Part shown: positions 9,560 through 59,268 of the stretch, piece after piece | How positions within the stretch are numbered: position 1 is the stretch's first letter | How the letters are laid out: every line of letters starts with the position of its first letter | Assembly: GCF_949628215.1 (NCBI RefSeq) | Contig: NC_134288.1 | Span: 1,736,001-1,800,000 of the forward strand | Length of the DNA: 64,000 nt | Reading direction: 5' to 3' | Source of the DNA: Phalacrocorax aristotelis | Taxonomy: Eukaryota > Chordata > Aves > Suliformes > Phalacrocoracidae | Program-made: the position numbers and the translations under genes | The notes under the pieces: model-generated | Database searches by the model: none | Told to the model about the DNA's origin: nothing | Seen by the model: the letters and a program-made list of their open reading frames with translations, nothing else

Positions 9560-9723
9560 CTACAATATTGTGGCTCCAGCAGCATCCACGCTCCTGGGGT
9601 CCTTCAGGCCAATGATGAAACTGTTGGTTCTCCTGGCCCCATGAACTAGGGAGACCACTTTGACTTTATCCACTTGATGGCCCCTGGCTACAAGGAATTC
9701 AATATCTTCTTCAGGAAACTCAC
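9560..9723 (-). CDS. GGT7: GGT7 terminal coding exon 15
   Basis: It encodes residues 611-664, including SEFPEEDIEFLVARGHQVDK and LVHGARRTNSFI, and ends DPRSVDAAGATIL with a TAG stop at 9562-9560. This closely matches the C-terminus of mammalian GGT7. The acceptor is CCTACAG. Confidence 0.96.
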
Positions 9724-12700
9724 CTGTAGGGATTTTAAAAGAGGAGTTTGTAACTGAAACCACTGTTGCCTTTGATGCAAAGCTCTGTTCTAACCCTGTT
9801 GGGATGTGCAAGTGTGAAGTAAACTGCCTGCAGCTCTCTTCAGAAGATGTCCCAGCTAGGGCGAGCCAAGCGGCCAAGGAGGACCCGCGTTCACCGCTCT
9901 GAGGAGCCGCCTTTCAGCTCTCAGCAGCAAAGGCTGTTCAGAGCTGGGCAGTGCTCTGTGCAGTGGGGGAAATGAGAGGATTCGGAAGCCCATTTAAAGG
10001 TGTGGAAGACCCTCCTCTGGAAAAAGGGGAAAACATGTTGTTGACACCTATTGTAGTTATTCTCCTTACAGAACGCGAGGCAGTCCCCACTCTTAGAGCT
10101 TAGTTACAAAAAACAGTTATTAACAGTCATTAGTTAAAATAAGACACAAGGCAGCTCAAAACAAATGGTAGTAGAACAAGTTGCCAAATGACAAACTTTG
10201 TGATAAACCTTCCAACTTCCCCTTCATGCATTTCTTCATCTTCCAGCCATCTACCTTAGGTTCCTTGCTCTTCTGTTTTTGTTTCATTTTATGTTTTGTA
10301 AGTTCTGTATGAAGTGCCTGAGGATACGAAGCTGGGGGTGCAGCTGGACAAACTGAGCGGGCACACAGAAACCCCACAGTTATTTAAGCTATATACATTG
10401 CAGATGTGTCTCAATGTATACCTTGTTGCCAAATGTCCAAACGCACAAATTAGGACCTTTTGAAGTTCTGGATTTGTTTTAATTACGTTCTAGTTTCCAA
10501 GTCTGCAGGTCACACTCACCAGACATTATTAGATTTTCCTCTGAAATGGGAAGGCCTAGAAACTTTACCTGTTTTGTGTGAAATGGGAACCAAATTTCAC
10601 TTAGGGTTCACTCTGGTAAGGTATGGGGCTTTGCGAAAAACACCAAATAGACCAAGACTTGTAATAACAATGACAAGAGCTGGCAGTCTCCAGAGCGTCA
10701 GCACTGAGACTGCATTTCCAGCACTGTCAAGCCACAAGCCTTGCCACACGCCTTGTCTTCTCCTCAGCTAGTGGAGTTAAGGGAAAGTGAAAGAATATAA
10801 TTTATGGCAATGGTAATGTAGTGTAGGAAGATCTGCTGGCTTTCAGGACCTGTCTGGGTGAAGCTGTGGTTGCAACCTTGTTTATTTGGATATCCTCAAT
10901 GGCATCAGATTGCCTAAAGGTTTTAAGTACAGGACAAGGCTGCTACCAGGTGAGCTGGGACAGAGGGAGGGTGGGGGAGAAGCACCTGAAAGTGTTTGGC
11001 TGGTCACCTGATGACCAGGGAGCATTCCCAAGACAAGAGGGAGAGGGCATTGCTCAGCAAGGGGTCCAACCTTCAAAGAAGCTAGGTTGCTGCTTTTTGT
11101 CCTCCCCAAAACCCTCTGCACCCACTGGGGACCCTAGAACATGGTGAGCTGTGCGCTGGGCTGTTACACTTCCACGGCGGCATGCTAAGAAAATCCTGCT
11201 CCTTTTCTAAACACACTAGGTCTGTAGGCTGCACCGCACTCAGCGTCCATACTCACTGTCAACCTGCAAGGTGTTGGAGTGAAGCTCTGGGTGAAGTCGA
11301 CCAAGTGACAAACTTTCACTCAGATTCTTGTTAAATGTTAAAACATTGACCAAAACCTGCAAAAGAATAAAAGATCCTCAATTATAAAAAGCGTAATGAG
11401 AATAGGAGAAGCCAACTTCCTGAGCATCCCCCTGTTGGTGGCTCCAACATCTGCAGATGCAGCAGGCAAAGAAGATTTTGAACCGTTTACCAAACCACAT
11501 GAACTAACGCAGGGTTTTGCATATACAAAGAGGCCCTTGAAGTATGGTCTGTATATTGTTGGTGGAAAAGCGGTACCTTTTCAGGATGGCATGGGCTTTT
11601 TGTCACATAGTCCCTGCTAAATTAGGAGAATTGTGCGTCTGGAACGTGATGTAATCTCTAAATACGTGTTTGTTACAGCTAAAAGCTCAGCATGTGACTT
11701 CTCCAAACAAAGCATTAGGAAGCAATGGTTGGCTTTAGTTCTGCTCTGAATAATGCCTTCCAAAAGGTAAGGAAAATGGGAGCCATTCTGTTGTGCCTTT
11801 CTTTTTAGCAATCCATTGCTGTTGTGCATGCAACTAAGCTATTGGCAAGTACTTCATCTCATGACAAATAAAAAATTGGGAAGAGCTGCCCAATTTATAG
11901 CAAGTGCTGAGTAGGGAGGAATTCAGTCAGGAATGCACTAAAAGGAGCTTTTCACAGGGAGAAGGGCGAAAGGGTTGCCAGTCTCCTGCAATTCTCTGAA
12001 TAAAAAATGCTCCTTTTTTTCCCTAACAACCCTTAAACAAGCTTTGAACAGGTATTAGAATGACACAAAACCATTACAGATTTTGCCAGGATGCTTTTCC
12101 TCTACAATTATGAGCAGTGCCACCAGGAAAAGTGCAAGAGAAGTAAACTAGTAGCTCTTAGAGATTTGAAAAACCAAATGTGTGGAACTGGTGACATCAA
12201 AGACTAAGCCAGTAATCCTGTGGCCACCAGTTTCAACACAGCCTGGGACATTATGAAGGGAAAGCCTATACTGCATGAGGGGACCCTACTCAGCGTTGAG
12301 CTCAACAGCTGCTCTGAGAGGATGGATGCCTGGCCACAGCACCAACCTGAACGATGCTGCTCAGGGCTTTGTCCCCGTTGTTAGCTCCCAGACACAGGTA
12401 GGTCCCACACATCCCCTCGGATGGTCTCACGATGGTGGGCAGCAGGAAAGACAGAGGCCGTTTCCGAGGCTGAATGAGATTTTGCTGCAGTCGAAGAAAA
12501 GACACACTAAAATATTTCAACGAGTTGACTAAAGCTTTGCTGGTGCTCAAGTTGCACAGGTTAACTTCTTACCCTTTATGCTTCAGACAGCGATTGTACT
12601 TGTGTAGTTTTACACACACTGCTATGATGATGCTCTCTGATGTTAACAGGATCTGTCCCATTTCATGTCATGGCATTGTTTTACAGAAGGTATACGGAGC

Positions 12701-15700
12701 CATTCACCCACTTCTAAAGTACCAACCCAGCAAAGTGGGGTGGTTTTACAATACACGGCAAGCAGAAACAACAAGGCAGCACTGGAAGCCACCAGTACTG
12801 GTCTGTAATTGTTTCTTTCAAAGATCCAAGGGTTTTTTTTCTGCTATCTGTTACTTTTAAATGTGCAGAGCAGCAATTCATAGAGAGAGTCCTTAATTCA
12901 AGTCCACAGAAAAAGACGGTTGCTTTAAAGTGCATCTGGACTGCAGGGAAAATAGGTAGCTGCGATGTGCAGTGTCTTTTGATAAAACTGCATTATAATG
13001 ATAACTGATACACATGAAGCCTTCTGTTTACTCTGTTTCAGTGGCTCATATAATGAAAAAATAGGACCTTTCTACAGACTGTTGTCTCTCAGTTATTAAT
13101 AAGGCATTAAACAGCCTACCTGTTGTGAAGATGAGAATAACATTGAAAAAAAAATGGTACAGACAGCTCAAATAAAGAATTTGTCACGTTGTTCATTACC
13201 GGCCTGGGAATGGAGTGGTTCATTGTTTTATTTTGCCAGGAGAAGTCCAACATCTGGCTGTTCAGGAGGACTCCAGATGGTGTTATTATTCCACTGCCAA
13301 AGGGACGATTCAAAGAACTGAAAAGAAACATGAAGAAATCTCATTAAAATCCTCCCAGAGATTTTTGTACTCCTCAAGGCTTTCAGGGCTCCAATATTCT
13401 GTCCCATCCTGGTTTGATAGAGACTCTTGGGTAGTTCTTTAGGGCTGGTTAGATGTGAGGAGTCGAAGTCTCCATGTACGTAGGAGCAGGAACCATGTGG
13501 GCAATAAGCAGCTCTGCCCCTCTCTGTGTTTAAGGATTCCCTCTAGGTGATGGATCTGTCTCCATGCCCCTATGAGTCTTCAAATTTGCCCATCACCGCT
13601 TCTCCAGGGAGCAGATTCAGGCCAATCCAGACATGTTTCCCTGTGAGATGGCTGTAGGATTGCACAGGGCAGAGCAGCACCAGCTCACACATCTCCACCC
13701 CGTCTTCCCCATTTCTCCTGTTGCAGGACTAACTGGGACAGAGCAGCCCAGCTGCTCCAGGTCTGGTCCCATCCTGTCCTGCTGAACCTGCTTTCTTCTC
13801 TCTGCTTCCACCCTCTGAGTACATTATGGAGGGAAGAAGTAAATCCTTTACCTTACAACTGCAACAATGAAGTCATCAGGTCCCATAACAAGGACCTGGC
13901 TAGCAGCAGATCCACTCTCCACAGAGAAGTGAGGCATGTGGAGATCGGATGAGAAGGACTGGGAGTCATTAATCAGCTGGCGCAGGGAATTAGCTTCTGA
14001 TTTGCTTCAGCAATGAGGAAGGAAAAGAGGAAAGAAAGCCATGAGCCTAGGAAGCTGAACATCTCTTGGTCTCTCTGTGGGGGTACACCTACACAGCTAC
14101 TGGTGGCATCTCCCTGAGGGGGCTGGCACTGAGGACAGGGAGCTCCTTCAACTCACCCGATGGAAGGAGACAAGATGGCTCAGTCCACACAGAGAGGCAA
14201 TGCCATGGATCTCCCAGGCTCTGTCTACAGTGGTAAACTCACTCCCGATGGACAAGGGATGGCACCACCTGGCTGAATGACAGTCCTCCAGGAGGAGGGC
14301 AAGTCAGGTCCAGCTCTGGCCCCCAACTGTGGCTAAACCTGGCTCTGAGGTGGGAGGCTGGGCTGAAACCCAGGCCTGGCCTCTCCCGCATGTCTGGGTG
14401 TACTGCAAAGCCCTGTGGTGGGGGAGAGACAGAAACTGCATGTGTGGTCATGACCACGTGGATGGTCATTTGTCTGACTTGCTGAGAAGGAATATTTAGG
14501 TGGGTGAGAAAGTGGGAGGAACCCTCAAGATCAAGGTGGCTCGAGGAAACCTCTGTATGAGGACATCCCATGACCCATCCCCAGAGCCCCATGGTATCAG
14601 CTAACCCTTGTGAGAAGAGTGAGCCCTAGGAGGACACTCAAGGACTGACCTTTCCTCAGTAAAACAGAGGTAGAAAAACCTCAGGTTTCCCTCTACACTG
14701 AAAAGAGCAAATCCAGGAATGATATCCAAACCACACGTCTTGCAACCGTCACCATCCCTGTCAGGCTTAGACCTACCTCACCATGCCTTCTGCAGCGTGA
14801 GTGATGGACACATCATCAGATGGGTCTCCCAGGTTGCTAGCTAGACTCAGGGCTATTTTTAATGTCTAAATGAAAGAAAGAAAGTAAAGAAAGTAAGGGG
14901 AGGGAAGGGAGGGAAGGGAGGGAGGGAGGAAGGAAGGGAGGGAGGGAGGAAGGGAGGAAGGGAGGAAGGGAGGAAGGGAGGAAGGGAGGAAGGGAGGAAG
15001 GGAGGAAGGGAGGAAGGAAGGAAGGAAGGAAGGAAGGAAGGAAGGAAGGAAGGAAGGAAGGAAGGAAGGAAGGAAGGAAGGAAGGAAGGAAGGAAGGAAG
15101 GAAGGAAGGAAGGAAGGAAGGAAGGAAGGAAGGAAAAAGGAAAGGAAAGGAAAGGAAAGGAAAGGAAAGGAAAGGAAAGGAAAGGAAAGGAAAGGAAAGG
15201 AAAGGAAAGGAAAGGAAAGGAAAGGAAAGGAAAGGAAAGGAAAGGAAAGGAAAAGGAAAGGAAAGGAAAAGGAAAAGGAAAAGGAAAGGAAAAGGAAAAG
15301 GAAAAGGAAAGGAAAAGGAAAAGGAAAAGGAAAAGGAAAAGGAAAAGGAAAAGGAAAGAAAAGAAAAGAAAAGAAAAGAAAAGAAAAGAAAAGGAAAAGA
15401 AAAGAAAAGAAAAGAAAAGAAAAGAAAAGAAAAGAAAAGAAAAGAAAAGAAAAGAAAAGAAAAGAAAAGAAAAGAAAAGAAAAGAAAAGAAAAGAAAAGA
15501 AAAGAAAAGAAAAAGAAAAAGAAAAGGAGAAAAGAAAAGAAAAAAGATTTAAGTGGCCCTGGAAATACAACTTTTGATACTCCAAACAGGAAAAGGTATC
15601 TGGTCTCCTGGCACATTGGCTAAAGCCTATGAAGAAAAATGTCTAAAAGCCTGGTCCTGGGAATACCTCAGTGCAAAGGGCTGCCACACGAGTATGGGGA

Positions 15701-18700
15701 TCAAAGGGCATCAGTTTGGCGTGGCAAACTGTGTGCTGGGAGAGCTGAGTGTATCCAGCAGTGTGCTTGTACAAGGTGGAACATGCCTGGCAGGAGCTGA
15801 CCAGCTGGCTCAGCCCAGCTCAGTGGTACCGCTGCATTGCCAGATGGCAGACAGGGTCACCAGGATTCCACTTACTTTCTGTCTCCATTCCTGAGTGGTC
15901 ACCACAACAGCAGAGATCACCCAGTCCCACCCAGTGGGACAGTGGGTCCTGGGCTCGCTGTTGCCTCTGGACGGCAGCTCCACTGGCACAGCACCACTGC
16001 CGAGCAGAAATGAGCTACTCTGCTCACCAGCTGCAACCCATGGTCCTAGTTGTAAGTCATTCAAAGTGTTTGAACAGAAAGTGCTAGTCCCAGCACACAT
16101 AAGGGAATGATAGTATAAAAAGAGGAAGGGATCTGGTTTCTCATACGTGCAGAATCCTGCCTAAGCCAGCTCATTAAAAATGGGAAGATGCAATTTCGTA
16201 AGACACAGTTTATCCAGCCCTGGTTTTACAGTGCGTAGCCAGAGGACAGGAGAAATTTGCTCTTCAATCAAGCCAGCTTCTGCCTAGCAGAAACACACCA
16301 GACTTCCAGCTTGCAGGTCATGCCATTTTCATTCAAGATTCAAGACAGTACATTACCCCATAGGTAGATAGCTACATATGACTTCTGTTTTGGTATGTGC
16401 CACACATCAACAACTTCTCCTGAAGTGTCATCATTTGTCTTCCGATTTACAGTGTAGAACATGATTAACTTCTGGAGAAGGTGGTGTTTCCATGAAACAG
16501 TCTCCTGACCACCATACCATATGGAGGATGTACAAGAGGCTTGGTGGCCAAGGAAGAGCTCCACTGAAACAAGCAGGCCTTCTTGGTCATGGCTGCCCCA
16601 GGGCTGGACTATCTGTGCCTACCTAGCACTCAATCTCAGCCATGTGATCCCAAATAATCAGGGTTACACCTCTGAAGTGACTGCCCTTTATCTGGAGGTT
16701 GCTGTTCCTCAGCTGGGACAGGATAACCAATGGGTGAAACTCGGCCTGGTGCAAATGCAGAGCAAATAGATTCCTCCAAAGCTTCCTGGAAGCGAGCTCA
16801 GAAATAATTTAGGTGAGTCAACCTTCCCTGCCTCTGCACAGGCCTAGCAGCGTGTAACACCTCCAGTTGCATTTTTGCTGAGAGGCAATAACTTCCAAGC
16901 ACCCACTCTCCTGTCTGCTACAAGGATGTGGTTATACCCTTGCTTAAAATTTCCAACTCATAAAACCCAGCTGTGGATCTGTTAAGCATCCAAGAACATA
17001 ACTCTGCTTACAGTGCAGGAAATGGAGCACTTGCTTGACTTCCTGGGAAGCTGCAATGTTTCAGTAGGGCTGACAGCCCTGAATACTGGAAAAATCATGA
17101 TCTGGACCACTGAGATCATGAGGTGGGCTAAGATGTAAAGATTAAAATAAAAACAGTGTTGGGTCAGTTTTCCTTGTCATCGCCCCGCATAAGGTTTTGC
17201 TTGCAGCAACGCATTGCTGACTCTCCTTGCAGTGCCCTGCCAGTGCTCTGGTATGGCCGGGGCCACTGGAGCATAAGAGGTGGCGGAAATAGATGGGAGC
17301 ACCCCGAGCTGCTGAGGGGTCATTCTGAAGGGATGATCACACACAGGAAATGGGAAAAAGCCACAGTTCGTCCTTCTGAAAAAGCTCTGCCTAAGCAAGA
17401 AAGCTCAGCTGAGCAGGAGGCTCCAGCACCTGCACCTACCTGAGGCAGCACAGTTCAGATTCACACCTTAGCAGTCTATTTGCTCATTCTCCTGCAAATT
17501 ACCTACAAACATTTTTGTGCAACCAAGGAATAAATAAATTATTCTCTAGCAGCCCAAGAGATTGAGCCAAATATTGAACCTTCTCTTACCTCTGCCATCC
17601 AGTGCAAGATATTCCCCCTGGATACTTGACTTGTGATGTTAAAGCCCTCAAGGATGTTCAGTGCTGTGATCAGTGCAGGACCTGCATGTGGAGGTGGGGG
17701 ACTGAAAACAAGATGACCTGTGAAGGGAAGATGAGAGGAATGAAGCTGCTTTTGTCAGATACTGTCCAGTTATAATACTTTCCCATAAGCTAGTGTCCTT
17801 AAACCTTTCCGGATTTGAGGGGAAATAAAGGAAAGCAACATTATTTGAAAAGGATTTCCCAAAATCTTTCTGTTGTATTTTGCTGTTTCTTTACGACAGA
17901 TGAAAGAAACCCGAAGAGGATGCTTTTTTTTTACATCTGAAATTCAGTTCTTGTTGGTTGGCTGGTTGGTTTCTGGGCTGCAGTATGGAAGAACAGAGAT
18001 AAAATAGGTTTGCAACTTTACAGCTATATGGAGAGTAAGTACAGGGATTTCTATAAAAGAAGGACATTTTAGAAACTTTTTGCATGAAGTAAGTTTTTCT
18101 CCCTTGTAGATCAACTTTGGGAACTGTCTTCAGACATAGATGCTAGCCTATCGTCCAGCTTCTACTAGATATTGCATCAATATGTGATCATGTTGCATTT
18201 TTACACTCTAATACTATCAAAATACCACCAGTCACTATCAAGGACAAAACCAGGCCTGTTTCAAAGTGCTGAAAAACTCCTGAACTGCCTACGATGCATC
18301 AGTGTCAGCAGGCAATAGCAGGAAACTCCATGGAGAGCTTTTCTGCAGACACCTCAGCGCAGCTTTGATTCAACTCTGTGCGCTGGAGAAATACTGTCAC
18401 CAGCTCTTGCCAGGTGAAGCAAACGTTTAACTGGGGTTGCATGGCAGCGGGTCAGGCATTTACCTCGATAGACTGTGTGGACAGGATCCTCCACTACAAC
18501 ACTGTAATTGCTGAAGTCTTCCTCCACCAAGACTCCTCCATAGTTGTGGACCTGCATAGGAGAGCAAAGCAGTGCACACTGAGGTCAGGCTTTCTCTGTT
18601 CCTTGTGCTGGTCCAGGTGAACACACGCCAAACTGTCGGACTTTTAGTCCACTGAGACTCCCGAGCCAAGTGCCAGGTTCTTAAGGATACCCTGAAAATC

Positions 18701-21700
18701 TGTGCTTTCATGGCCTTGGTGGCCTGGCTCACCATTCAGCACCGCCCTGCACCTCACCTGCAAAAGCTCACCCACCCCACAGATGCTCCGAAGACATTCT
18801 GCCTACAGGCGAGGGTGGGGACTGGCATTGCCTCGCAGCCAGGGAGGCAAGCATGGGTATATTAAAGGCAATGAAGCACTTGAATACTGCCAGGATAAAA
18901 GATATATATGGATCCAGGAGAGAAGGAACCTGGGTGTAGCAGGTCACCATCACTAGAAATTTTTAGCATACAATTTTCACCCTATTTTTAATTATTTCAG
19001 GTGACAGTGGGTCTGCTGTACCCTTGGTCTTTCTGTTAGACTCTCCTAGAGGTACAATTTACTGGACTTGGTAATTTTTGTGAACACAGTAAAGAATGAT
19101 AATTCCCTCCACTGCAGGTCTTCTGTGGTTGTCACAATGCAGATGAGGTAGGAGCATCGCAACTGCACTCTGCTGATCTTAAAAATCCCCTGAAGGAGGT
19201 AATATTCTCAGTTAGCATACAGGCGCTACTGTGCTTATGAGCCGACTCTTTCCTTTTACCCAGGAGAAGCCACACAATCCGGTGAGAGGTTCTGCTGGGG
19301 TGAGTTGCTGCTAGGAGTCCTCTGTATTTCCATCCAAAAATGGGCAAGAACAAATAACCTGTGCATGGGCTGATTTCTAAAACTAGCCAGCTAACTTGGC
19401 AAGAAAACTCCTTCTCTGCCAGAAATGGATGAATCACTGGAGCAGGAAAGGTAATGCAGGGCACGTTGTGGGGGAGAGCATGTCAAACTACCCCAAAGCT
19501 GCAAAAGAAGATGTATCCCCTACTTGGGATCCCTGCCCCCTTCCCAAAGCAGTCCCAGAGAACAGGCCAGGTTGAACCCAATGGCTGAGACAAGCAGGCA
19601 GGTGCCTGTGCCAGGAGCTGGCTCCCTGGAGCTCGGCCAGTGGAAAGCCTAGGCAAAGCAGTTGGGAGTGGGGCAGGAGGAGGCTGATGGCACAGAAAAG
19701 GGAGAAATCCTGGTCAGCCACACACTGCAGACACCGTCTCAAATTCCCCAGCGAGCACTTTTTTGCACCTGTGCCTTCCGCCACGGGACGGAAACAAAGG
19801 GTAGGGTGTTTTGGAGCTTTACTTGATTTCACCACATTGATGCCCTCCTTTTTCTGGAACACTAAACACCGTGGGAAGCCAGCACTTTGCTCTGCTCTGC
19901 AACCAAAGCTGGAATTGCGCACTTGATCCCAGAGCTTGCCGGGGCCTTTGGTGTTGCAACCCTGGGCCTTCCTCCTCCACAGAGAGTTTGTGCTTCCTTG
20001 CGGCAACCCTCAGGTCAGGGGAATGGGGTGATAAACCAGGGTTTAGCTGTGGAGATGCACCACAAGCTTGGGACTCCTCCTGTTCCTCATTCTCCACCTC
20101 TGCTGTGGTCCAGGTGAACCGTAGGACATTCCCAAACACAGAGCTCACAAATGTCTAAGGCTTGAGCTGAATGAACCCATTACTGATGACATGTTGAAGA
20201 TGCATCACTTGAACCATGGTGGTAGGGAAGAATGGTGCCACAACCACCCTGACTGCAGCTACAGAGGTATAAAAGTTGTTTGGTTTATTTTTACCAGAAT
20301 AATTACTTCGTTTGTTGTTGCTACTTTTTTCCAGAGCACCTCTAACAACAGGAGTTAAAGTAGGGCAACCCTAAATGGGATCGAGCCTGTCTGATCCTCT
20401 GCCACAGGGCTCACAGTTTTATTTTTAAACCATCCTCAGGGAGTCTCTATCTTACATTTCCATTAACAACAAAAAATTGCTACTCAACAGTGGGGAACTG
20501 CTTGTTATGGGGAAAAAGGTGCTGTCACTAATACTAACACAGCCCAGAGGAGGTCTTGGAAATTTAATTTCTTTTTCTTTCGAAAAAACAGTCTGTCCTG
20601 GTTATGGAGGAAATGGAGGTTTCACTTCTATAGGCTGTGGAAGTGACATGTATGTCATTTACACCACTGCAGTGACAGGGGCAAGAAAGCAAAAGGAGGC
20701 TCCACATATTTGTCACCATTATTGTGCTGACACTTGGCTATGGCTTATCTCCAGGTTGTCACCTTAAGCAGGTGACATGGCATGTGGCATCCCCAGCCCA
20801 GGCTGTGCCGTGTGGTCTGGGGTGGAGACAGGGACAGACATTGCTCACCTCAGAGACGATCTCCTGGGTCAAGTTTCCACTGTAGAAAGCTGACACCCCT
20901 TCTGTGCCCACCAGCTCCAGGATGGCCGCGAGGTCCAGCCGCCTGACGAACATGCCAGGCAGCAAGGGCTGGCCATCCGGCAGGAAGATCTCCCGAAATT
21001 TTTCAGAGTAGTTCAGGTCCTTCAGTTCACTTATGGCTTTGGCTGTGGGTGAGAAGGAGGACATCCAGAAAAGCCATGGTGTGGGAATGTGCAGGGGACC
21101 TGGAGTCACTGTGCGCCTGATGGGGATGTTGGAGACTTGCTGCTGCCTCTTGCTCTACCTCAAAACTAGAGGGAGGCTGGATCGTGCATCCATTACAGCT
21201 GGTAAGGAAACCCAAAGAAACCCCAGCGCCCTTCCCTGGGAGGCTGCCCAGTGTCGGCTACTCTGACCTGTCCCTGACCTGCCCTGGGAAAGGGCTCCAG
21301 TTTTGCTGCCACCATGTCCTCCCCTTGCAGACTGTGGCTCACACATTGCTCAGCTCCCAACACCATCCATCTCCAGGTCCGAAGAGCCTTAATTTCCCAT
21401 GAATAACCATCTACACCCCCAGCTGCCTCACACCCAAGTGCAGTGGCCAGTGTGCTCCTTCATGCTAAGCAGTCACCCTTGGGTACCCATCAGGCACTCA
21501 CCCAAATCGTGTGTGACGTTAAACCCATCCTGGGCAACACTGGCAGCGAGGCCCAGCAGCTCGGACCACAGGAGTCTGCCAAAGGAGAAAGGACAAGAAG
21601 AAACGTGCCTTGGAGCGGTGCAGCAGGGCAGGGTAGTGGGGAGCTCAGCTCTGCAGTTGGGGGCTCCTGAAAGACCAGGCTAGTGGCCAAAAGGAGCACT

Positions 21701-24700
21701 GAGCTTTTGGTGGGTTGTTTCTTTTTAGCAGGATCATCTCAGTGCTCCACAACGTGCACCAGAGAGGAATGTCAGTGCAAGGACAGGGGAAGGGGCATCT
21801 CTGCAGAAAAATCTCAAGCCAAGCCCTGGCCCTGAGCAAGTCATTCAGACCCCTCCCTCCCTGTCCCAACAGGGCATCGCGGACAGCCACACTTCTTAGG
21901 GTCTAGCTAAAGAGAGAATGAAAATACACAGACACGCATTAAAATGTTCTGTGCCTATTTCTAAGAGAACATTTATTGTCTGTCTTGATAGCCAAAAATT
22001 TTGCTTTCCAGATAATGTGACCAAGCAGAATTATTTCTTTTGTTGCACAAAGTACCAAAAAATGAACATATTTTTCAATATAAGCCTCCAAGTACCCTTT
22101 AGGTAATGATTTTGACCGGTGGCTGAGAACATGATCTGATGGCAAGGGCTCGTGTGCTCCCAGCTCCCCTGCAGGGACCCCAGGGCACAACTTGTGCAGC
22201 GTGAGGACAGCCTGCCTGTGCCAGCCATGTGTCTTACCTCCCATGTAACTGGTGCGCGTGGTGCATTCCTTGTATCATACCTGGCACTCCCACCAGCAGA
22301 CCTGGCTGTAAAATAGGAAGGACAAAAAGGAAGAGTAGTCTCCTTCCCATGAGGACAGGGGATGTGGTCCCCAGTTGCAAGTAAAGGAGATGCAAGTCAT
22401 GTTCCATGGGAAGTCTCTGCATACTCTTTAGGAGAGGGAAAGAGGTCTGTAGCAACACACTAAATTAGGGAATACAAGATTTTGGAAGGGAAGAGGCAAA
22501 AATTCAGTCCTGGTCTCAATCCAGTTTGTTCAGAAATAACTCAGCAGAACAACATGGGATTGTGCTCTTTCCTGGGTCTCTTGTTGTCCTGACTCCCCAC
22601 TGCCGGAGGGACATGCCTCTTTAGTCGCCAAGCCTGGAGGCTCCAGGCATTTTGGGGCTGCCAAAGTAGTATTTTCCCTGGACTCCCCAGGTCTGTAGGG
22701 CCTGGGATCTCCCACGGTGGGAGAGGTCTTCTGTCACTTCCCTGGGCCTGAGAGTAGTGGGGAGAGGAGAACTGGAGACATCCAGAGCTACAGCCCTGGA
22801 GGGGTCAACTGTGGGACACTGGTCCTCACCTTGGTGTCCTTCTGCAGGTCCCACTCCAGTGGGATGCCGAGGGGAGCCACCTCGCGGAAGTCGATCACCC
22901 AGCTCCTGTTCTTCCGGATGTCATGGACCAGCATTACCCCACCCCTGCAGCGAGACGGGGGTCACGGCACAGCACTGGCTGTCCCTGCAACAGCTGCTGC
23001 CGTAAAGTCGAAAGGAAGACAGCGGGTGCCAATGGGGCTCGGGCCAGTCCCAGCATGATGGGGCCACCCTAGCACGTCACCAGCCTCAGCAGTGACCCAG
23101 GGCCAGCCAGTGGTGTAGGGGAACGCTGCTGCCCTTCCCCAGAGAGCAGATCTGGACAACCAAGCCAATGCCGGTGCGGGACACAGGCAGCCCCCATGCT
23201 GAGCCTGCAGCACGGCTGGATCAGTCCCTGTCAGCCTGGCCAGAGGCTCTGTTCCACTGCCAGGCTGGGACTATCTGGGATTTTCTTTCTAATCCAAGCA
23301 GTTTTGCAACAAAACAGGGTTTTTGCTTACAACAGCAATCCGTGGCACAGCCTGGAGAAGCTATCAAGTGGCAGTGTTTTATGCAATGCTCCCAAGACCT
23401 CCTGCAGAGCTGAGAGCACCAGGCTCACGTAGATGCCACACTGGGGATGAGGGCTGGGAGGAGGCTACCCCTCGCCGCCATGCCTCCCCTGGCTGCTGCC
23501 TGGAGCCGGGCTCGGACCTCAGCCTCCTGCTGCAGCAGAACCAGAGCTTATGGAGGGAAGGACTCAATCTCTGAAAGCATTGGGACTGAACCCAGGGTGT
23601 TGCAAGCTCCTGGCACACTCGCAGAGGTGCTTGGCAGCCTATGGTGACTTTCTCAAACCTCCCAAGCCTAAGGCTTGGACTCTCCTAGCAGCCACTATAG
23701 CAGATGCAGCTTTTCCCTCCCTGGAAGGTCTCTGTCCCTCGCTGTCAAGTCAGTGAACAGGAAGAGTCCCCGTCCCTGTGCAGACGTGGATGCGTCCACT
23801 GCCTGATATCAGAGACCTGGTACCACGTGCTGGGACTCGGGCTACCATGAAGCATGTCTCAGCTGGTGGGGGAACCACCTGCCTGAGGACAGCCACAGAC
23901 AACAGCACGAGGGTGAGCGATCAACACTTACCCGCCGATCCCTGATGTGTGGGGGTTGACGATTCCTGCACAGAGGGCCGAAGTGATGGCTGCATCTACT
24001 GAGGAGCCCTGCTTGTTGAGCACCTCTATGCCCAGCGCTGTACAGCGGGCAGCATCCGTGACCACGGCACCACGGTGGAAGATCTGCCGGAAGAGGACAG
24101 CGGTTGTGCCCAGGGAGGGGTGCTGGGGCTGCCCAGATCTTTGCCTAGCTCTGTGGGACCTAATGCCTGAGGCCAGCACCAAGGCTGCGGCTGATCTGCA
24201 TTTTCAGGTACCTCCAAATGCTGGTGGGAGCAATATGTCCCTTGGCATGTCCCTGTGCCAGGGCAGCTGTGGCTGCTCTGCATGTAGCCATGGCCATCAG
24301 CTCAGCCGGCTTTCAACAGTAGGCATGCTAAGCTGGTGGGCCATGTCTCACCCTGTCCTCCACAACCCCACAGCAGGATCAGACTAATCCTCAAGAGCAA
24401 CGGGTGACGGTGTGCTGTCACTGCATTGCAGCAGCGTGGTCACTGGAAATGGGACTACAGCTGCAAAGAACGCAGCATCCCCCGAGTACCACGCCTTGTT
24501 TTCATCCTTCCCTGGTGCCAGTGCCAGCGATAATACAGTCACATGAAGTTTTAAAATGTTCATTTTAACCCCACGGTAAATCGCAGCATCTCAGCATGAG
24601 CCAGAGTGGCCTTGGGAAGTGCGAAGATGGACGGGCCACAGCAGGCTGGTGGGCAGGACCGGCCCTTCCAGTGGTTCCACAAAAGGGACCGCTTTGCAGA

Positions 24701-27700
24701 GCCTCCCTCCGGCGCTGCATCCCAGCCAGCCATGGGGCCAAGCCACTCCACTCCCAATGGCTGCGTTTTGCATGCCAGTGAGAGAGCAATAAATTAAAAA
24801 AAAAGGCAAAACTCTTCCACGTCGACTTGCAGGCAGCTCTGCCCTGCTGGGCAGCATAGGAGAAGACAATGGTGACAATTGGCTGCCCCTTGACCCTTCT
24901 CAGGCTGGAGTACTTGGCAGATGTTCTGCAGGAAGATATGACCCCACAGCTGTGCTGCCTTTGCTCTGAAATTTAGCACTGATCTGTGGGACAGGTTAGC
25001 AGGAGGTTCAGCTCTGTTTTCAGCTATTCCCCTGCTTGGTCCTGGATGGATCCTTCCAGAGGTCAGCCTGGGCATACAGATCTACAAGCTCTCTCCAAGT
25101 GGAGGGGTACGAAAGATGCCCACTGCTTAACTACGGAATGCTTTCTGATAGCACTCATGTCTGGCTCAAACCACAGCTGGAGCCACAGCAGTGGGGCTGC
25201 CTGTTTCCCCCCGGCAACACCCCCAAACCTGCCAGGCACAGCCACTCACACCCTGGCCGCGGGGCAGGTGCCAAGAGCACAGCTCGCCTCTCCCAGCACA
25301 ACCGCCAGCCACAGGAAAAAGCGTTCAAGACCATTTGGGGTGGAATCACAGAGAGGGGCTCGGCACCCAGGGTCTCACTGACACTGGCTGGGGCTCACCA
25401 GTGCTAACCCCCCTAAACTGCTGGCAAGTAAGAAAATTAGGGAGCTTCTCCTAATTTCAGAGACAAAGCCCAGCTGCAAAGCCACTGTTTTGTCTTACCT
25501 GAGGGTCCCCAAAATAGATCTGCATGATCAGGGCCACAGTGACCCCCGTGGCAAAGGTCAGGCAGGCGGTGATGATGACAGTCAGCCCATCCTGCCGGCA
25601 GCTGCAGTCTCCAGAAAAAGGGTCCTTGCTGGTCTCCCGGAGAGGGGACACGTCCTGGCTTCCCATCTCTGATGAGGACGAGGGCAGGCGCTGGAGACGC
25701 GCAGACTTTAGGAAGGAGTCTGGGTCTTTGAGGGCAGCAGGGAGAAAACAAATGTTAGTTATTGAGCAACACTGGGCTCTTATTGCTGTGTTTACCCAGC
25801 GCTAACATTACACCATGCCCCCTCCTGCAAGGCTATTACCTTCCCTATTGATCCCAGCTCTCAAGAGACTTTCTGGCTCAGATGCTGCTTTAGTTCATTT
25901 TACTGATCCTTTCCTTTAGCTCTAGTAATTCCAAACTACTTTCCTGGAGATTAAGAGGGGCAAAAAAACCTGAATTTTGCTCCATTTCAGTCCATTCATC
26001 AGTCTTCAGTGATGGGCCCACAGCTACTGGAGGTGTTCTTAACACAGCACTGACTTGCAAACAGGTCTCTGAAATGCAGCAGGACTGAAGAAGAGGAAAT
26101 TAAGATATAAAAAAAAAATTCCAGCAGCCTTATTTGGAGCTATGCTTGAGCTAAAGCACCCGAGCAGAACAGAGGCGAAGCAAAACATGTGGCCCGGGCA
26201 CAGGAAATACCTCTACAGAAGCATGGCAAAGTAAGGGCAGAGAGGAGCAAACCTGCAAACCGGAGGGGCTCGGGGCATCCACCCATTCTGATGGCAGGAA
26301 AGGCTCTGCTTTAACTTCTTGCTTCCTCCAGCTGACGAGGCCCACTGTGAAACCAAGCTGCTCGCTGGATGCCCAGCTGCAAGATGCCAAATGCAGTGGG
26401 GCAGGGTTTTGCTGGGCATCCGCCAGAGAGCAAACAATTCTCAGAAGGATGAAAAAGTCTCTCTATTGCTCTGAAAGATGCCTTGAATCTCTGCTTGCAT
26501 CAGCTACTGCCTTTGTGGCGGGGAGGACACTGGCTGAGCATGCTCTGCCTGCACGTGGGCACTGCTGGGCACACAGAGCTGTTGGTGCAGCCATGGGGAC
26601 ATGCCGTCCCTGCTGGGCACCGAACGGGACCAAGCAGCTCAGGGCATCATCCAGGGCTCCTAGATGAATTTTTTCAGGGGCTGCCAAGAGCCAGTGGGGG
26701 CTTCAGTGCCCGCACATCCATGGTGGGAAGAAGAGGAGCAGTGAGGGCAAAAGACAAGATGAGAAGCCTGTCCCTCCACACAGAGGATGTTTCCTGGGTT
26801 TGGGGTAAGGGAGAAGGGAGCAAGAAACTCCACATTGCCCATCACCCCGCTGTGCCTCTCCATCTGCTCTGGCAGACAGCATCTCCCTGGGGATTGCCAG
26901 CCCTGTCCTTGCCACGACATTAAAAAGACCTCCTGGGTGCAGCTCTCCTGGGGCCAGGCAGAGTGTTAGTTTTAATTTCAGTGATGCTGCAACCAGGAGT
27001 GAACCGCCTGCAGCCGGGGAATCCCCTGAGGGTGAATTTAATCACATTCATACTGCAGTGATTTAGGAGCCGACTCAGCCTCCCTCAGCCCAAGCCTGCG
27101 CCTCTGAGCGTACACAGAGTCCCTCACTGGCATGTCTGGTCTGAGTGAGCTGGGCCTGCAGCATATAGGCAGAGTGGGAGGGCTGGCTGGGGGGGAATGA
27201 TGGGCCTGGGGTGCCCATGGTGGGGCCCACGACTGGCCTGGCAGGGGATGCCATTGGGGTGGGGTGTCACATACAGCCCCTGGCACCACCCCAGTGGGGC
27301 ACCAGCCCCACCAGTGGGGAAACAGTGAAGAGTAAGCTGGGCTCCTCTACTCGACCCCTCCAGGACGCCGTCCCTCTGCTCTGCTCCTGTAGTGCTGGTG
27401 GCAGGCCAGCCGAGCATGAGGGGTCATGAACATCCAGGGAGCAACCATGGGAGAGGACAGGCCATGGCAGGAGATGCAGATGTCCCATCATTCTCTGCCA
27501 CAGACATCCTGCATGGCCTTGGACAAGTCACTCGGTCTCTCTGACCACTGGTGCTGCGTGGGGACAGCAGGGCTGTGGTTTAGGGGTGGGAGTGGCTGAA
27601 AGGGGCCAGTCAGGAGCACAGAGGGCAAGGAGCAGCCTGCGAGGCCAACATGCAGGTGTCCATCCCACCACCAATGCCCACGCTCAGATTCCACCAAACC

Positions 27701-29000
27701 CTGCTTGGCTTCCATGGGTGCTATGAAGGAGACATGGCTTCATGGGGAAACCAGCACTTTGGGGAATGAGGGCCACCTCAGCTCTGGAGCCACTGCAGAG
27801 GGAGCACGGGCTCTGGCAGGAGCTGCAATGTGGGACCCTTCAGTCCTCTGGGGGGTCCATCACCTGCACCAGCAGCAGAACAGAAGCTTCCTCCTTTTAA
27901 TGAGATCTTCTGGGCGGTAGAAACCAAAGGTCTGGGTTTCCTCCCTGCCAGTCCAGCAGATAATGTAGCATGGAGAAGCACAGCCAGCTGTTGCAATGCA
28001 CAAGCAGCATTGGATGAGCACGTGTTTCCACGTGTCAGGAGAGCAGCAGCTCCTCCAGCCACCCCAGGAGACAGACACCGCGCCTGGCAGGGCGCCGGCA
28101 CAGCTGAAACCGCGCCAAACTCTGCTCATGCTCCGCATGTGAGACGAGAGGCCTCGCGCTTTTGGAAGAGCTGTTCCTGCAAACCTGCATGTGGCAGCTT
28201 TGCCCTGACAGTGCAGGATGGCGTGGGATGAGGACGGGCAATGGGAGCTTCACCTGGCGGTCACAGTGACACAGGGCAGAGGACAAGGGGCCCGTGGGTC
28301 CCGCTCAAACATGGGCCTCAGGGTTTTGGGGTCGCAGGGCAGAGACCTGCCCGCAGGGTATGAAGCAGCCCCGGGGGTGAAGGGCAACACTGCTTGGAGA
28401 AACATGACACGAGGGAGAAAAAAATGTTTCTCTGGACTACTGAGAAGGAAGCAATCAACTGAAAACAGGCAAAGGGTTTCCGCAAGGATGGAAGGAGCAC
28501 CTGACTTTATTACGGCCCTGCGCCTGGCAGGAGGGATCACTAGCGCCATGTCAGACCCCCGGTACCTCTGGCTATGTTCCGTGCCCACGGCCCCGCAAGG
28601 TAAAGCAGGGGCCGGGGAACAGGAGGACGTGGGCGCCAGGGGCAGGGAGCCCTTCGGCCCGGCCGGGCAGCGCCGGGGAAGGCGGTTTGGAGGGCGGGCG
28701 GGGACTGCTGTCCGAGGGGACCCCCGGGCCTGCGGGAGGCCGCGGGCGGAGCGGGGGCCCAGGGGTATGGGGGGCGCGGGGGGCCGCGGGCGGGCTCGGC
28801 CGCCGCCCCTCACCCGTGTCCTGCTCGCCCAGGAACGCGTCCTCCTCCTTCCTGGCGCGGAGGCCGCCCTCGGCCGCGCTGCCCGCCTCCTCCTCGGGCA
28901 GCCGGGGGAAGCTGGTGATGCTCATGTAGTCCACGGGCGAGTCGGCGGCCAGGGCCCGCTGCCGGCCTCCCGCCGCCTCCGCCGGCACCGGCACCGCCAT
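9560..29000 (-). CDS. GGT7: Gamma-glutamyltransferase 7 (15 coding exons, complete, 664 aa)
   Basis: The coding exons join as 28814-29000, 25499-25725, 23932-24083, 22830-22944, 22238-22305, 21502-21575, 20849-21042, 18464-18551, 17590-17717, 14777-14865, 13852-14004, 13200-13317, 12347-12484, 11257-11356 and 9560-9723. All junctions are GT-AG and stay in phase, giving 1995 nt or 664 residues plus stop; human GGT7 is 662 as I remember. The product is a type II membrane protein. It has a cytoplasmic N-terminal region with the SPVDYMSITSFPRLPE motif, one transmembrane helix at about 110-132, and a gamma-glutamyltransferase fold outside. DFRE (207-210) contains the Arg that binds the gamma-glutamyl carboxylate in GGT1. 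The nucleophile position (about 473-474) reads Ser-Ala instead of Thr, and the Ser-Ser oxyanion pair of GGT1 is Ser-Phe, as in human GGT7. GGT7 enzymatic activity is not well established. It is neighboured by a CpG promoter on the right and RAB5IF upstream on the same strand. Confidence in the identity is very high; single splice sites are read by eye. Confidence 0.96.
11257..11356 (-). CDS. GGT7: GGT7 coding exon 14
   Basis: This 100-bp exon encodes residues 578 to 611 and reads VLVNVLTFNKNLSESLSLGR, then LHPELHSNTLQVD. The acceptor is TTTTGCAG and the donor is GTGAGT. Confidence 0.92.
12347..12484 (-). CDS. GGT7: GGT7 coding exon 13
   Basis: It encodes residues 532-577. RKRPLSFLLPTIV corresponds to the PLSSMCPT oxyanion-loop motif of GGT1, with Phe replacing the second Ser. 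LGANNGDKAL lies at the glycine-loop position. The donor is GTTGGT. Confidence 0.93.
13200..13317 (-). CDS. GGT7: GGT7 coding exon 12
   Basis: It encodes residues 492-531 and reads SLNRPFGSGIITPSGVLLNS, then QMLDFSW. This corresponds to the small-subunit motif (FGS, SGILLN, DFS) of GGTs. The acceptor is TTTTCAG and the donor is GTAATG. Confidence 0.94.
13852..14004 (-). CDS. GGT7: GGT7 coding exon 11 (autocleavage/nucleophile region)
   Basis: It encodes residues 441 to 492. It covers LRQLINDSQ and the region that holds the autocleavage site in active GGTs, here ESGSAASQVLVMGPDDFIVA. No Thr is found at the expected nucleophile position. The acceptor is GCTGAAG and the donor is GTAAAG. Confidence 0.9.
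14777..14865 (-). CDS. GGT7: GGT7 coding exon 10 (behind the giant polypyrimidine tract)
   Basis: It encodes residues 412 to 441 and reads TLKIALSLASNLGDPSDD. The acceptor ATTTAG abuts a roughly 680-nt pyrimidine-rich repeat. I chose the donor GTAGGT (exon end 14777) because it alone keeps frame with exon 11. A competing GTGAGG donor lies 5 nt upstream (exon end 14782). Confidence 0.88.
14871..15547. repeat. Giant polypurine (plus) / polypyrimidine (GGT7 sense) compound microsatellite
   Basis: The plus strand has a short GAAA-rich lead-in with isolated T at 14871, 14885 and 14894. Then comes an uninterrupted purine run of 653 bp (14895-15547). Blocks follow in order of rising A content: mixed GGGA/GGGAGGAA, GGAA tetramers, GGAAA pentamers, GGAAAA hexamers, and finally GAAAA pentamers. 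In GGT7 pre-mRNA it forms the end of intron 9 next to the exon 10 acceptor at 14866-14867. Homopurine runs of this kind can form intramolecular triplexes. Confidence 0.98.
17590..17717 (-). CDS. GGT7: GGT7 coding exon 9
   Basis: It encodes residues 369-411 and reads HLVFSPPPPHAGPALITALN, then ILEGFNITSQV, ending in LHWMAE. The acceptor is CTTCACAG and the donor is GTAAGA. Confidence 0.93.
18464..18551 (-). CDS. GGT7: GGT7 coding exon 8
   Basis: It encodes residues 340 to 369 and reads YGGVLVEEDFSNYSVVVEDP, then VHTVYRG. This matches the conserved GG(V/I)L-EEDF-NY motif of the family. The acceptor is TATGCAG and the donor is GTAAAT. Confidence 0.94.
20849..21042 (-). CDS. GGT7: GGT7 coding exon 7
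   Basis: It encodes residues 275-339, including YSEKFREIFLPDGQPLLPG and AFYSGNLTQEIVSE, which contains an Asn-Leu-Thr sequon. The acceptor is CCCACAG and the donor is GTGAGC. Confidence 0.94.
21502..21575 (-). CDS. GGT7: GGT7 coding exon 6
   Basis: This 74-bp exon encodes residues 250 to 275. It includes LAASVAQDGFNVTHDL, with an Asn-Val-Thr glycosylation sequon. The acceptor is TTTGGCAG and the donor is GTGAGT. Confidence 0.92.
22238..22305 (-). CDS. GGT7: GGT7 coding exon 5
   Basis: This 68-bp exon encodes residues 228 to 250, PGLLVGVPGMIQGMHHAHQL, the GVPG motif conserved across the GGT family. The acceptor is TTTTACAG and the donor is GTAAGA. Confidence 0.94.
22830..22944 (-). CDS. GGT7: GGT7 coding exon 4 (DFRE substrate Arg)
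   Basis: It encodes residues 189-227. It completes the glycine run, then reads VMLVHDIRKN and VIDFREVAP. Arg209 matches the substrate-binding Arg107 of human GGT1. The acceptor is CTGCAG and the donor is GTGAGG. Confidence 0.94.
23932..24083 (-). CDS. GGT7: GGT7 coding exon 3
   Basis: It encodes residues 139 to 189, including GAVVTDAARC and KQGSSVDAAI, the start of the GGT domain with the usual GGT signature SSVDAA. It ends in the glycine run HTSGIGG. The donor is GTAAGT. Confidence 0.95.
25499..25725 (-). CDS. GGT7: GGT7 coding exon 2 (transmembrane segment)
   Basis: It encodes residues 63-138. It contains the conserved DPDSFLKSARLQRLPSSSSE stretch, a Cys-x-Cys before the membrane, and the signal-anchor helix LTVIITACLTFATGVTVALI ending in QIYFGDPQ. 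The donor is GTAAGA. Confidence 0.95.
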
Positions 29001-40823: not shown

Positions 40824-42944
40824 ATGGGAGGGGGGACCCTCGGTGTGCAGGGCAGCCCCCCTGGCCAGGCTCCCCTCCTCCCAGGATGTTCTGACTGCAC
40901 TGTCTGCTCAAAATCCACAGTCATGCCTAGCGCCTTCTGTAGGCGGGCTGCAGGGCTGGAGGTGTTGGGAGTGGGAGAGCCTTTAGGATAAAACACAGCT
41001 GTGCAGGGCATTGCAGCTTGTTACCTCTGTTTATTCGAGCAGACATTACAGCAGCCAGACATATGCCGTCTGTAGAAATTATGCCCTTGGAAGTGTATGC
41101 AAATAAAATAATCACATGTGGAGTCCTAAAGATTCACCTATTTTTTTATATTCTTGCCTTACAAGAGCAATGGTATTCAACTTAGACACTCCTCATGAAA
41201 AAACATGTTGGGAATTACTTCTTCAGCATGGGGTGGGCAGGGTGATTGGTTGGGGTTGATTCACCATTATCCCCTTCAGGGTGTGCTTATGTGGGCAGGT
41301 GGGCAAAGGCTGGATTTGTGACGATAAGTGATCAAATTTCGTGTATGTGCGTGTGTGTGGGTATAGATACCTCCTCCTGGCGGGTGGCATGATAGGTCGT
41401 TCAGGTCCATGGTGCTGGGCCTGCTCAGGGTGTTGCTGGAAAACCTTGATCCTGTTATGAACCTTGCTGGTGGTGGTGAGGCCCGAGTCCTGCAAAGATA
41501 GCTCGTATGGAGCCGTTCCTTCCTCGCTTGCCCGTGCGCATCCCCACTGGTGCTGATGCATGATGAGGTTCACTGTTTCATTTCCCCATTAACAAACCCC
41601 AGGCCCAAGGTCCTGCATTTCTTTCTGTTGCACAAACTAGCAACCACGTGACGTGATGAGCATCTTGGGAGCCTGACTGCTCTGTGTGAAACGCTAAATA
41701 CTTCAGTAGCAGCCACCTTGCTGTGGATTTCAGCAGGACCTGGGAACCTTCAGGAGTAGACTGGACCTACCCGAGCTGTGTGTGGTTATCACAGAGGAGA
41801 GCAGGCAGATGAGTCCTTGTCCCAGACCTCCAATCACTTCCAGACAAGGCCATGTAATTTAAATACAGATTATGCAAAATTACTTTTGTACTCCAAAAGT
41901 ATCTTGCCCTGCTCCAGCTATCAGGCCCCTGAGCACATGTCCAACCCCTTGGGCATTTGCCACAAGCCAAAGGCTGGTCCAAGTCAACAGACCCATGTTG
42001 CATTAGCAGGAAGGGGACGGACATTGCTGTATCTCCAGCAGCACCTTTGCCTCTGACACCCCCACCATCACAGGGGCCTTTGCTGAGGGGCCAGGTTTCA
42101 CACGTCCAGCCCCAGCCTTGCTCCTGGTGTGCTCCTCAGGTGCTTGGGGCATGGCAGCCCCTCTCCTGCTCCACTCTGTGATGGACACAGTGGGACCCCA
42201 GGCCTGATCTCTTCCAGGACTTTAGGCTGTGTCTTAGGCATGTGCGGAGTCTTGTTGTCCCCAGCTCCGTGCTCCTGCCCCAGGCCACTTTGCTGGGGTG
42301 GAAGTGCTTGCATGATGATGAGACACCTGGATCAAGGAACTGATCTAAAATTCATGTGCTAAGAAAAAAACCTGGCTTGTTTTACTCCATCTCCATTGCC
42401 CAATCTACTTCCCAGAGAGAAAAACAAATTAAACTGGGGCTTGAAAGAACAAGGAGGAGGCAGGAGAGATGGCAGAGGATGTCACAGAGGTACAAACAGG
42501 CCCCTGGTAGGGGATGTGGGTTGGCAGGCACATGGAAGTAGGGGAGGAGGATTACATGGGGAGCCCTGGGCACAGGCAGGGGAAGGTGGGAAGGGCTGGA
42601 TGGGGCTCAAGGGAGAGCCTGAGGGGATGTGTGAGGTGTTCCAGCAGCAGCCCCTTAGATCCACACAGCTTCAGAGGCTGTAAAGCATGTGAGGAGCTGC
42701 CATGTCCATACTGCCCCTCCTCACCAGTTCCCACCCTGCAGGGCGCAGCCTGACACCTGCCCAGTGGTGAGGAACAGGGGCTTGGAGAAGGACAGCGACC
42801 ACCCCAGAGGGGCTGGAGAGGGGTCCTGCCTCCTGCCAGGCTCCCGGGGACCACTTGGACACTGTGGAGGCTGGGGCTTCCCTCCAGCATAGACAAACCT
42901 GGGACCAGCCACGGGGTGGCAGCTTCGGCTGCTGACTCCTGGGA
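40824..42944. other. Intergenic stretch upstream of MYL9
   Basis: I see no exon or RNA gene. The part around 40990-41200 is AT-rich; the rest is of moderate GC content. Confidence 0.4.
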
Positions 42945-43431
42945 TTTTTCTTTTTCTTTTCTTTTCTTTTCTTTTCTTTTCTTTTCTTTTCTTTTCTTTT
43001 CTTTTCTTTTCTTTTCTTTTCCTTTTCTTTTCTTTTCTTTTCTTTTCTTTTCTTTTCTTTTCTTTTCTTTTCTTTTCTTTTCTTTTCTTTTCTTTTCTTT
43101 TCTCTTTTCTTTTCTTCTCTTTTCTTCTCTTTTCTTCTCTTCTCTTTTCTTCTCTTTTCTTCTCTTCTCTTTTCTTCTCTTCTCTTTTCTTCTCTTCTCT
43201 TTTCTTCTCTTCTCTTTTCTTCTCTTTTCTTCTCTTTTCTTCTCTTTTCTCTTCTCTTCTCTTCTCTTCTCTTCTCTTCTCTTCTCTTCTCTTCTCTTCT
43301 CTTCTCTTCTCTTCTCTTCTCTTCTCTTTTTTTCTCTTTTTTCTCTTTTTTCTCTTTTCTTCTCTTCTCTTCTCTTCTCTTCTCTTCTCTTCTCTTCTCT
43401 TCTCTTTTCTTTTCTTTTCTTTTCTTTTTTT
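42945..43431. repeat. 487-bp polypyrimidine (plus) compound microsatellite
   Basis: The run contains only C and T. It begins with CTTTT pentamers, passes through mixed CTTTT/CTTCT units into CTTCT pentamers, has three longer T runs near 43327-43352, and returns to CTTTT. Read on the minus strand it follows an AATAAAAACAAAAC motif, which could mean it grew from an old poly(A) tail. It lies about 2 kb upstream of the MYL9 promoter. Confidence 0.98.
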
Positions 43432-58794: not shown

Positions 58795-59268
58795 TGCCTT
58801 GTGGGGGTGCCCGTGGGTGGGTGCCTGTGGGTGGGTGTTGCTGCGTGGGTATCCCTGCACAGGTGTACCTGTGCGAGTGTCCCTCCATGGGTGTCCCTGT
58901 GCGAGTGTCCCTGGGTGGCAGTCCCTGTGTGGGTGTCCTGGTGCGAGTGTCCCTGGGTGGATGCCCCTGGGTGGGAGTCCCTGTGAGGGTGTCCCAGTGT
59001 GGGTGCCCTGGTGCGGGTGTCCCTGTGCGAGTGTCCCTGCATAGGTATCCCTGTGTGGGTGTCCCTGGGTGGATGCCCCTGGGTGGGAGCCCCAGTGCGA
59101 GTGCCCTGGTGCGGGTGTCCCTGTGCGAGCGTCCCTGGTGCGGGTGCCCCTGGGTGGGAGTCCAAGTGCGGGTGCCCTGGTGCGGGTGTCCCTGTGTGAG
59201 TGTCCCTGCATGGGTGTCCCAGTGTGGGTGTCCCGGTGCGGGTGCCGGGGTGCAGCTCTATGCGGGGG
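58795..59268. repeat. Minisatellite with 15-bp unit, about 31 copies
   Basis: Degenerate tandem units of the type GTGTCCCTGTGCGAG and variants (GGTGG, CATGG endings) run for about 470 bp up to the TGIF2 CpG island. Because 15 is a multiple of three, open frames run across it on both strands (185 codons on plus, 197 and 357 on minus) with five-residue repeats. These frames are not taken as genes. Confidence 0.92.

Follow-up and report, generated by a model that had tools for sequence, protein, structure and literature searches.

The window analysed here is the whole 64,000-nt stretch of Phalacrocorax aristotelis DNA (contig NC_134288.1, 1,736,001 to 1,800,000), and it contains GGT7 on the minus strand (Table 1). 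A tblastn search with human GGT7 as the query placed 15 stretches on the minus strand, in order, each at E 8.4e-4 or better; four further weak matches (E 3.0-3.8) were set aside. The exon junctions, from 29000 down to 9560, were picked by AG/GT dinucleotides, reading frame and similarity to the human protein. The predicted 664-aa protein is identical to human GGT7 at 466 positions. G_glu_transpept is its sole Pfam family (E 1e-133), and gamma-glutamyltranspeptidases are its top sequence matches among solved structures. The open 15-exon model and the Pfam match bear out both the gene name and the numbering of exon 10 and intron 9 used in a preliminary description of this DNA. The neighbourhood of exon 10 is found at one place in the assembly (1.279 Gb, 352 contigs).

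Table 1. Features of the GGT7 locus and of the second tract, in window positions. Negative numbers in the last column are distances upstream of exon 10.
Feature	Position	Strand	Description
GGT7 coding region (predicted)	9560..29000	-	15 exons, open 664-aa frame; junctions set by AG/GT, frame and similarity to human GGT7
GGT7 exon 10	14777..14865	-	89 nt, not a multiple of 3; first base 14865; tenth of 15 exons
GGT7 intron 9	14866..17589	-	2,724 nt; the purine/pyrimidine tract makes up 24%
Putative conventional 3' splice site of intron 9	14866..14894	-	candidate branch sites -29 (14894, CCCUUAC) and -20 (14885, UCUUUAC), U-rich tract, UAG
AG exclusion zone	14868..15558	-	691 nt; 18-55 in the other 13 GGT7 introns
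Compound microsatellite, pure homopurine (plus strand) / homopyrimidine (transcript)	14895..15547	-	653 nt in GGT7 intron 9, -30 to -682
Exon-proximal block, mixed GGGA/GGAA	14895..15011	.	64% G on plus strand; C-rich RNA
(GGAA)30 block	15012..15131	.	50% G; core of the longest perfect mirror repeat
GGAAA/GGAAAA block	15132..15356	.	37% G; contains (GGAAA)22 at 15139-15248
GAAAA block	15357..15547	.	21% G; contains (GAAAA)22 at 15399-15508 and all 35 transcript UCUU motifs
Distant branch-site candidates	15548..15550	-	-683, -684 and -685, just beyond the tract
Second pure pyrimidine tract	42945..43431	+	487 nt, TTTTC/TTCTC units, outside GGT7

The intron 9 tract consists of 394 A and 259 G on the plus strand with no C or T, and is bounded by T at 14894 and T at 15548. 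This base count agrees exactly with the 653-base pure-purine run, transcribed entirely as C and U, that the preliminary description had reported about 30 nt upstream of exon 10. The last tract base is 29 nt short of the exon. The same description had taken the tract as the end of intron 9, which is right in that the tract lies inside the intron and near its acceptor, but the intron continues beyond it. The tract divides into 138 G+A units, mostly of 4-6 nt, which are near-perfect and arranged in ordered blocks, so that it qualifies as a simple tandem repeat. The G fraction drops stepwise from block to block going away from the exon (0.64, 0.50, 0.37 and 0.21). The units follow one order, GGGA, GGAA, GGAAA, GGAAAA, GAAAA, which resembles a layering by successive rounds of expansion. 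Neighbouring blocks are about one base apart per unit, which would fit variant units that arose and then expanded in turn.

The length of the tract was compared with chance expectation. In 200 simulated 64-kb sequences, generated by a first-order Markov model trained on the window minus its two tracts, the longest purine or pyrimidine run averaged 18.9 and reached at most 27 bases. Outside the two tracts, the longest real run in the window has 24. A 200-kb sample of the contig that holds the window, C13 (20 of 20 stretches of 10 kb, with 162 N within two of them) contains two runs of at least 30 and none of at least 40. Given these three values, the 653-base run is not a product of chance composition. 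The tract is a real, unusually long and extreme compound microsatellite.

Motifs of this kind were counted over the whole assembly of 1.279 Gb. (GGAA)10 has 19,882 placements, (GGAAA)8 6,262 and (GAAAA)8 6,345, while a single mixed control motif, (GACAA)8, has 16. A reversed-pattern control gave nearly equal counts and is uninformative because these motifs are mirror-symmetric. Placements overlap, and the matches listed (100 per motif, all on contig C1) were grouped by hand into 4 (GGAA), 5 (GGAAA) and 5 (GAAAA) loci. This suggests on the order of 1,000 loci of at least 40 nt genome-wide, a rough figure taken from contig C1 in which compound arrays are counted more than once. For 320, 640 and 1,300 loci of at least 40 nt, placed uniformly in a genome assumed to have 150,000-180,000 introns, the chance expectation in pyrimidine orientation is 1.9-2.3, 3.8-4.5 and 7.6-9.1 arrays within 100 nt upstream of an acceptor, and 0.6-0.7, 1.1-1.4 and 2.3-2.7 within 30 nt. 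With about 1,000 arrays genome-wide, a few adjoining acceptors are therefore expected by chance and one case needs no special cause; the estimate covers all arrays of at least 40 nt, and a 653-nt array is rarer than that class. The window holds a second long tract, upstream of a gene that we take to be MYL9 from its translation. Two tracts of at least 487 nt in one 64-kb window are a local excess over the contig C13 sample, to be read with the caveat that windows holding long tracts are the ones a reader would flag.

The flanks were then inspected for traces of a mobile element. The upstream flank of the intron 9 tract (15548-16150) has a single match genome-wide, which is its own place, so the tract is not like a retroelement tail. 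A transposon origin is not supported, as neither this flank nor the single-copy stretch left of the second tract (42700-42944) has a match elsewhere in the genome. Repeat pairs were not found within either tract flank, each flank being searched separately, so that the result speaks for pairs inside one flank. The window has no Rfam match at gathering score.

Other tandem arrays were seen along the way. A 14-bp minisatellite, CCCTGTGTGGGTGT, occupies 58785-59244 of the window in about 33 copies with 71% match, and the gene downstream of it is presumably TGIF2, judging from its translation. On contig C13, a 42-bp GC-rich satellite with 238 copies and 91% match fills nearly the whole 10 kb from 500001 to 510000 (L002, 4-10000). 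Contig C1 carries (GGGAA)22, which is the AAGGG motif of RFC1, near (GGAAA)30 at about 3.87 Mb (L022, 1120-1232 and 1499-1666). Feather-type keratin gave at least 150 matches (150 of 257 candidates scored) and none in 14 control genomes. The feather-type keratin genes stand in dense arrays on contigs C23, C156, C25 and C2, with many identical scores and regular spacing, which suggests recent tandem duplication.

We then inspected the acceptor next to the tract. The AG of intron 9 is at 14867-14866. Between it and the tract, the transcript has adenosines solely opposite T at 14871, 14885 and 14894 (-6, -20 and -29), at the very distances given earlier. Adenosines were scored with the human branch-site matrices of Gooding 2006, Tables 2 and 3; the latter derives from 19 mapped human branch points, and its zero entries were set to 0.02 except at the branch adenosine (PMC1431707). 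With the Table 2 matrix, the scores in bits are 4.0 (-29), 3.71 (-6), 2.97 (-20), 2.58 (-683), 1.43 (-684) and 1.08 (-685). With the Table 3 matrix they are 5.72 (-29), 5.2 (-685), 4.14 (-6), 3.65 (-20), 2.34 (-684) and -1.43 (-683). No other listed adenosine back to -756 outscores -29 with either matrix, although the margin is narrow with Table 3. The -6 site is probably too close to the AG despite its 3.71 bits. The Table 2 scores of -29 and -20 support the earlier proposal of these two as the plausible near branch points. Even so, -29 does not stand out, as 5.4% of the adenosines in all GGT7 introns reach a score of 4 or more; it also lacks a purine at -1. In 8 of the other 13 GGT7 introns the top branch score in the search region is higher than that of -29, some of these top sites being too close to the AG.

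From -25 to -5, pyrimidines make up 90% and U alone 67%, and none of the other 13 GGT7 introns has so high a U fraction. The tract begins exactly upstream of the -29 adenosine. Because it stops just upstream of the best-scoring branch adenosine, it is not a polypyrimidine tract of the classical kind, which would lie between the branch point and the AG. As far as motifs can tell, the acceptor looks complete without the tract, having a candidate branch site, a U-rich stretch and UAG.

Long AG exclusion zones have been studied in human, where 165 of 67,334 exons have a zone of at least 150 and were examined (PMC1431707). There, a repetitive element is held responsible for the 369-nt zone of exon IDB1079466.8106, whose one good branch site is at -17; another exon has a zone of 1,126 nt and possible distant sites (PMC1431707). 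The GGT7 exon resembles exons of the IDB1079466.8106 type in that an AG-less repeat upstream of the acceptor inflates the zone and a conventional candidate branch site remains (PMC1431707). It differs from that exon in the length of the zone and in being pure pyrimidine.

Protein-binding motifs were counted in the tract transcript. PTB prefers UCUU-like RNA and poly(C)-binding proteins (PCBP) prefer C-rich RNA; a PTB-repressed exon is defined by UCUU/CUCU clusters close to its acceptor. UCUU occurs 35 times in the tract transcript, whereas the other 13 GGT7 introns have 4.0 copies per 653 nt. All 35 copies lie 491-682 nt from exon 10, the 461 nt of tract nearest the exon have none, and CUCU is absent from the tract. 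Exon 10 thus does not have the layout of a PTB-repressed exon, since UCUU is in excess, yet every copy is at least 491 nt away. The preliminary description had expected many copies of PTB-type proteins on the tract, and this is partly borne out: the sites are many, but the exon-near part is C-rich (CCC, CCUUCC). Such RNA would fit the preference of poly(C)-binding proteins, not that of PTB. As RNA made of C and U only cannot pair with itself, the tract transcript should be unstructured unless it meets purine-rich RNA.

Two kinds of mis-splicing can be read from the gene model. If exon 10 is skipped, the frame shifts and translation ends 4 codons into exon 11. On the far side of the tract the nearest AG is at 15560-15559; splicing there adds 693 nt, whose last codon, next to exon 10, is TAG. 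Minus-strand frames are open through the tract because C/U codons hold no stop. A coding extension through the tract was nevertheless rejected, as the 693-nt addition ends in TAG and no normal protein is expected from it. The product of either mis-splicing should be degraded, and a length effect would therefore act on dose rather than on isoform.

The tract was compared with known repeats in human introns. The CFTR (TG)n repeat is likewise near an acceptor; its motif is different, and a length association is known for CFTR only. Specifically, (TG)n length is associated with inclusion of CFTR exon 9 (PMC13174678, preprint). According to the same preprint, splicing-associated short tandem repeats in human cortex are enriched in the 100 bp before the exon they affect, with a bias to T-rich units; the GGT7 tract therefore sits where effects are most often seen (PMC13174678). 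The AAAAG/AAAGG/AAGGG repeat in RFC1 intron 2 (CANVAS, human) resembles the GGT7 tract in its motif series, its intronic location and its orientation, with the purines opposite the gene strand and hence CTTTT or CCCTT in the transcript (PMC11373605, PMC10563062). In these features, namely an intronic AAAAG-AAAGG-type repeat with a pyrimidine transcript, the GGT7 tract matches RFC1/CANVAS-type repeats. The RFC1 repeat, however, is far inside a large intron, at the 3' end of an Alu, whereas the GGT7 tract is 29 nt from an acceptor and has a single-copy upstream flank (PMC11373605). An RFC1-type origin at a retroelement 3' end does not fit, since the flank 15548-16150 and the acceptor/exon 10 side are each found once in the genome. 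The GGT7 tract also mixes tetra-, penta- and hexamers, unlike the RFC1 repeat. We know of no disease link for the GGT7 tract.

Several other readings of the locus have to be weighed. In one, an ancestral branch site (15548-15550, in CACUUAAAU) was parted from its acceptor by the growing repeat, and this site is still used across about 685 nt without an intervening AG. The 691-nt exclusion zone would agree with such an arrangement, and so would the -685 candidate, which is followed directly by the U-rich UCUUUUUUCUUUUC and comes close to -29 with the 19-branch-point matrix (5.2 and 5.72). PTB exon 11, GABBR1-type exon 23 and alpha-tropomyosin exon 3 resemble the GGT7 exon in having a very long AG-free, pyrimidine-rich intron end after a possible far branch site. 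In three human long-zone exons, mutating a near candidate (-51, -217 or -81) changed nothing, whereas inclusion was abolished or reduced by mutation of the far sites; PTB exon 11, with a zone of 381 nt, requires a site at -351 and not the high-scoring one at -51, and nPTB, with a zone of 438 nt, has a predicted branch site at -389 (PMC1431707). A well-scoring near site is thus not always the one used. On the other side, the zone is explained by repeat composition alone, the distal sites score 1.08-2.58 with the larger matrix against 4.0 and 2.97 nearby, and the best-scoring adenosine is not a far one with either matrix. The far site of PTB exon 11, UACUGAC, reaches 7.52 bits and is a strong consensus, whereas the GGT7 far sites score below the near one, which is a difference in score and no proof (PMC1431707). 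The near site is still favoured, because the far sites of the three tested exons had a strong consensus or were highest-scoring or so described, and none of their unused near sites is as close as -29 (PMC1431707). We regard a distant branch point as quite unlikely. Its fuller form would make exon 10 a natural distant-branch-point exon built of simple repeat, in which a microsatellite expanded inside the acceptor polypyrimidine tract, pushed the branch site about 685 nt off and made exon 10 and GGT7 dose length-dependent, and this is very improbable. If an expansion between branch site and AG did take place, orthologues without the tract would have CACUUAAAU directly before UUUCUUUCAUUUAG. Unlikely, too, is a regulation by length in which PTB and other CU-binding proteins, bound in many copies, would lower exon 10 inclusion as the tract grows and set GGT7 dose via nonsense-mediated decay. 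That exon 10 inclusion could depend on repeat length had been suggested in the preliminary description. The excess of UCUU, the early stop upon skipping and the enrichment of human splicing repeats within 100 bp upstream of exons are in its favour, as is the statement that the RFC1 transcript keeps the pathogenic repeat (PMC10563062). The distance of all UCUU sites from exon 10 argues against it, and so does the position of the tract upstream of the best-scoring branch site rather than between that site and the AG. One study also states that intron retention and exon use in RFC1 are unchanged by CCCTT/AAGGG expansions (PMC11373605).

An effect at the level of DNA is a further candidate, in which a G-quadruplex or triplex in the purine-rich template strand would slow the polymerase in intron 9 and affect GGT7 output or local mutation. 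The template (plus) strand has quadruplex-type motifs at 14897-14926 and 14936-15010, and the longest perfect mirror repeat, with arms of 62 nt, spans 15011-15134. A homopurine mirror repeat or four G-runs would make the tract a potential former of triplex (H-DNA) or quadruplex structures, a prediction from motif matching. AAGGG repeats form both structures in vitro, while the nonpathogenic RFC1 motifs, among which AAAAG and AAAGG are named, form neither, and more than half of the tract is made of units like the latter two (PMC10563062). Such an effect is accordingly improbable in our estimate. Least probable is an artefact in which the tract is real and its assembled length wrong. GA-rich sequence is a known cause of HiFi coverage dropout (PMC9186530), but 138 clean, ordered units free of C and T are unlike a noisy consensus, the window has no N, and the neighbourhood of exon 10 is placed once.

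The reading we prefer, with a probability of about 0.73, is that the tract is an expanded repeat, neutral for the most part, next to a normal 3' splice site of GGT7 intron 9. A compound homopurine/homopyrimidine microsatellite would have lengthened through slippage of its repeats, close upstream of an acceptor that is otherwise normal. U2 would pair at -29 (or -20), U2AF would bind the U-rich 25 nt, the first downstream AG would be used, and the repeat would leave with the intron. The tract would be mostly a bystander, a non-self-pairing RNA that may hold CU- or C-binding proteins without deciding exon 10 inclusion. A length effect or a distant branch point in GGT7 intron 9 is possible, but the sequence shows no positive sign of either; most likely the tract is neutral or weakly modulating. 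Among the matches listed in literature searches on distant branch points, repeats and acceptors, RFC1, bird microsatellites and GGT7, we recognised no paper describing the GGT7 tract, which is no proof of absence. The tract is an extreme example of an already described situation and involves no new mechanism. It shows how far a repeat can grow beside a splice acceptor without visible damage to the acceptor sequence. If its length varies between individuals, the locus would offer a natural experiment on whether pure pyrimidine RNA on the upstream side of a branch site has any bearing on splicing.
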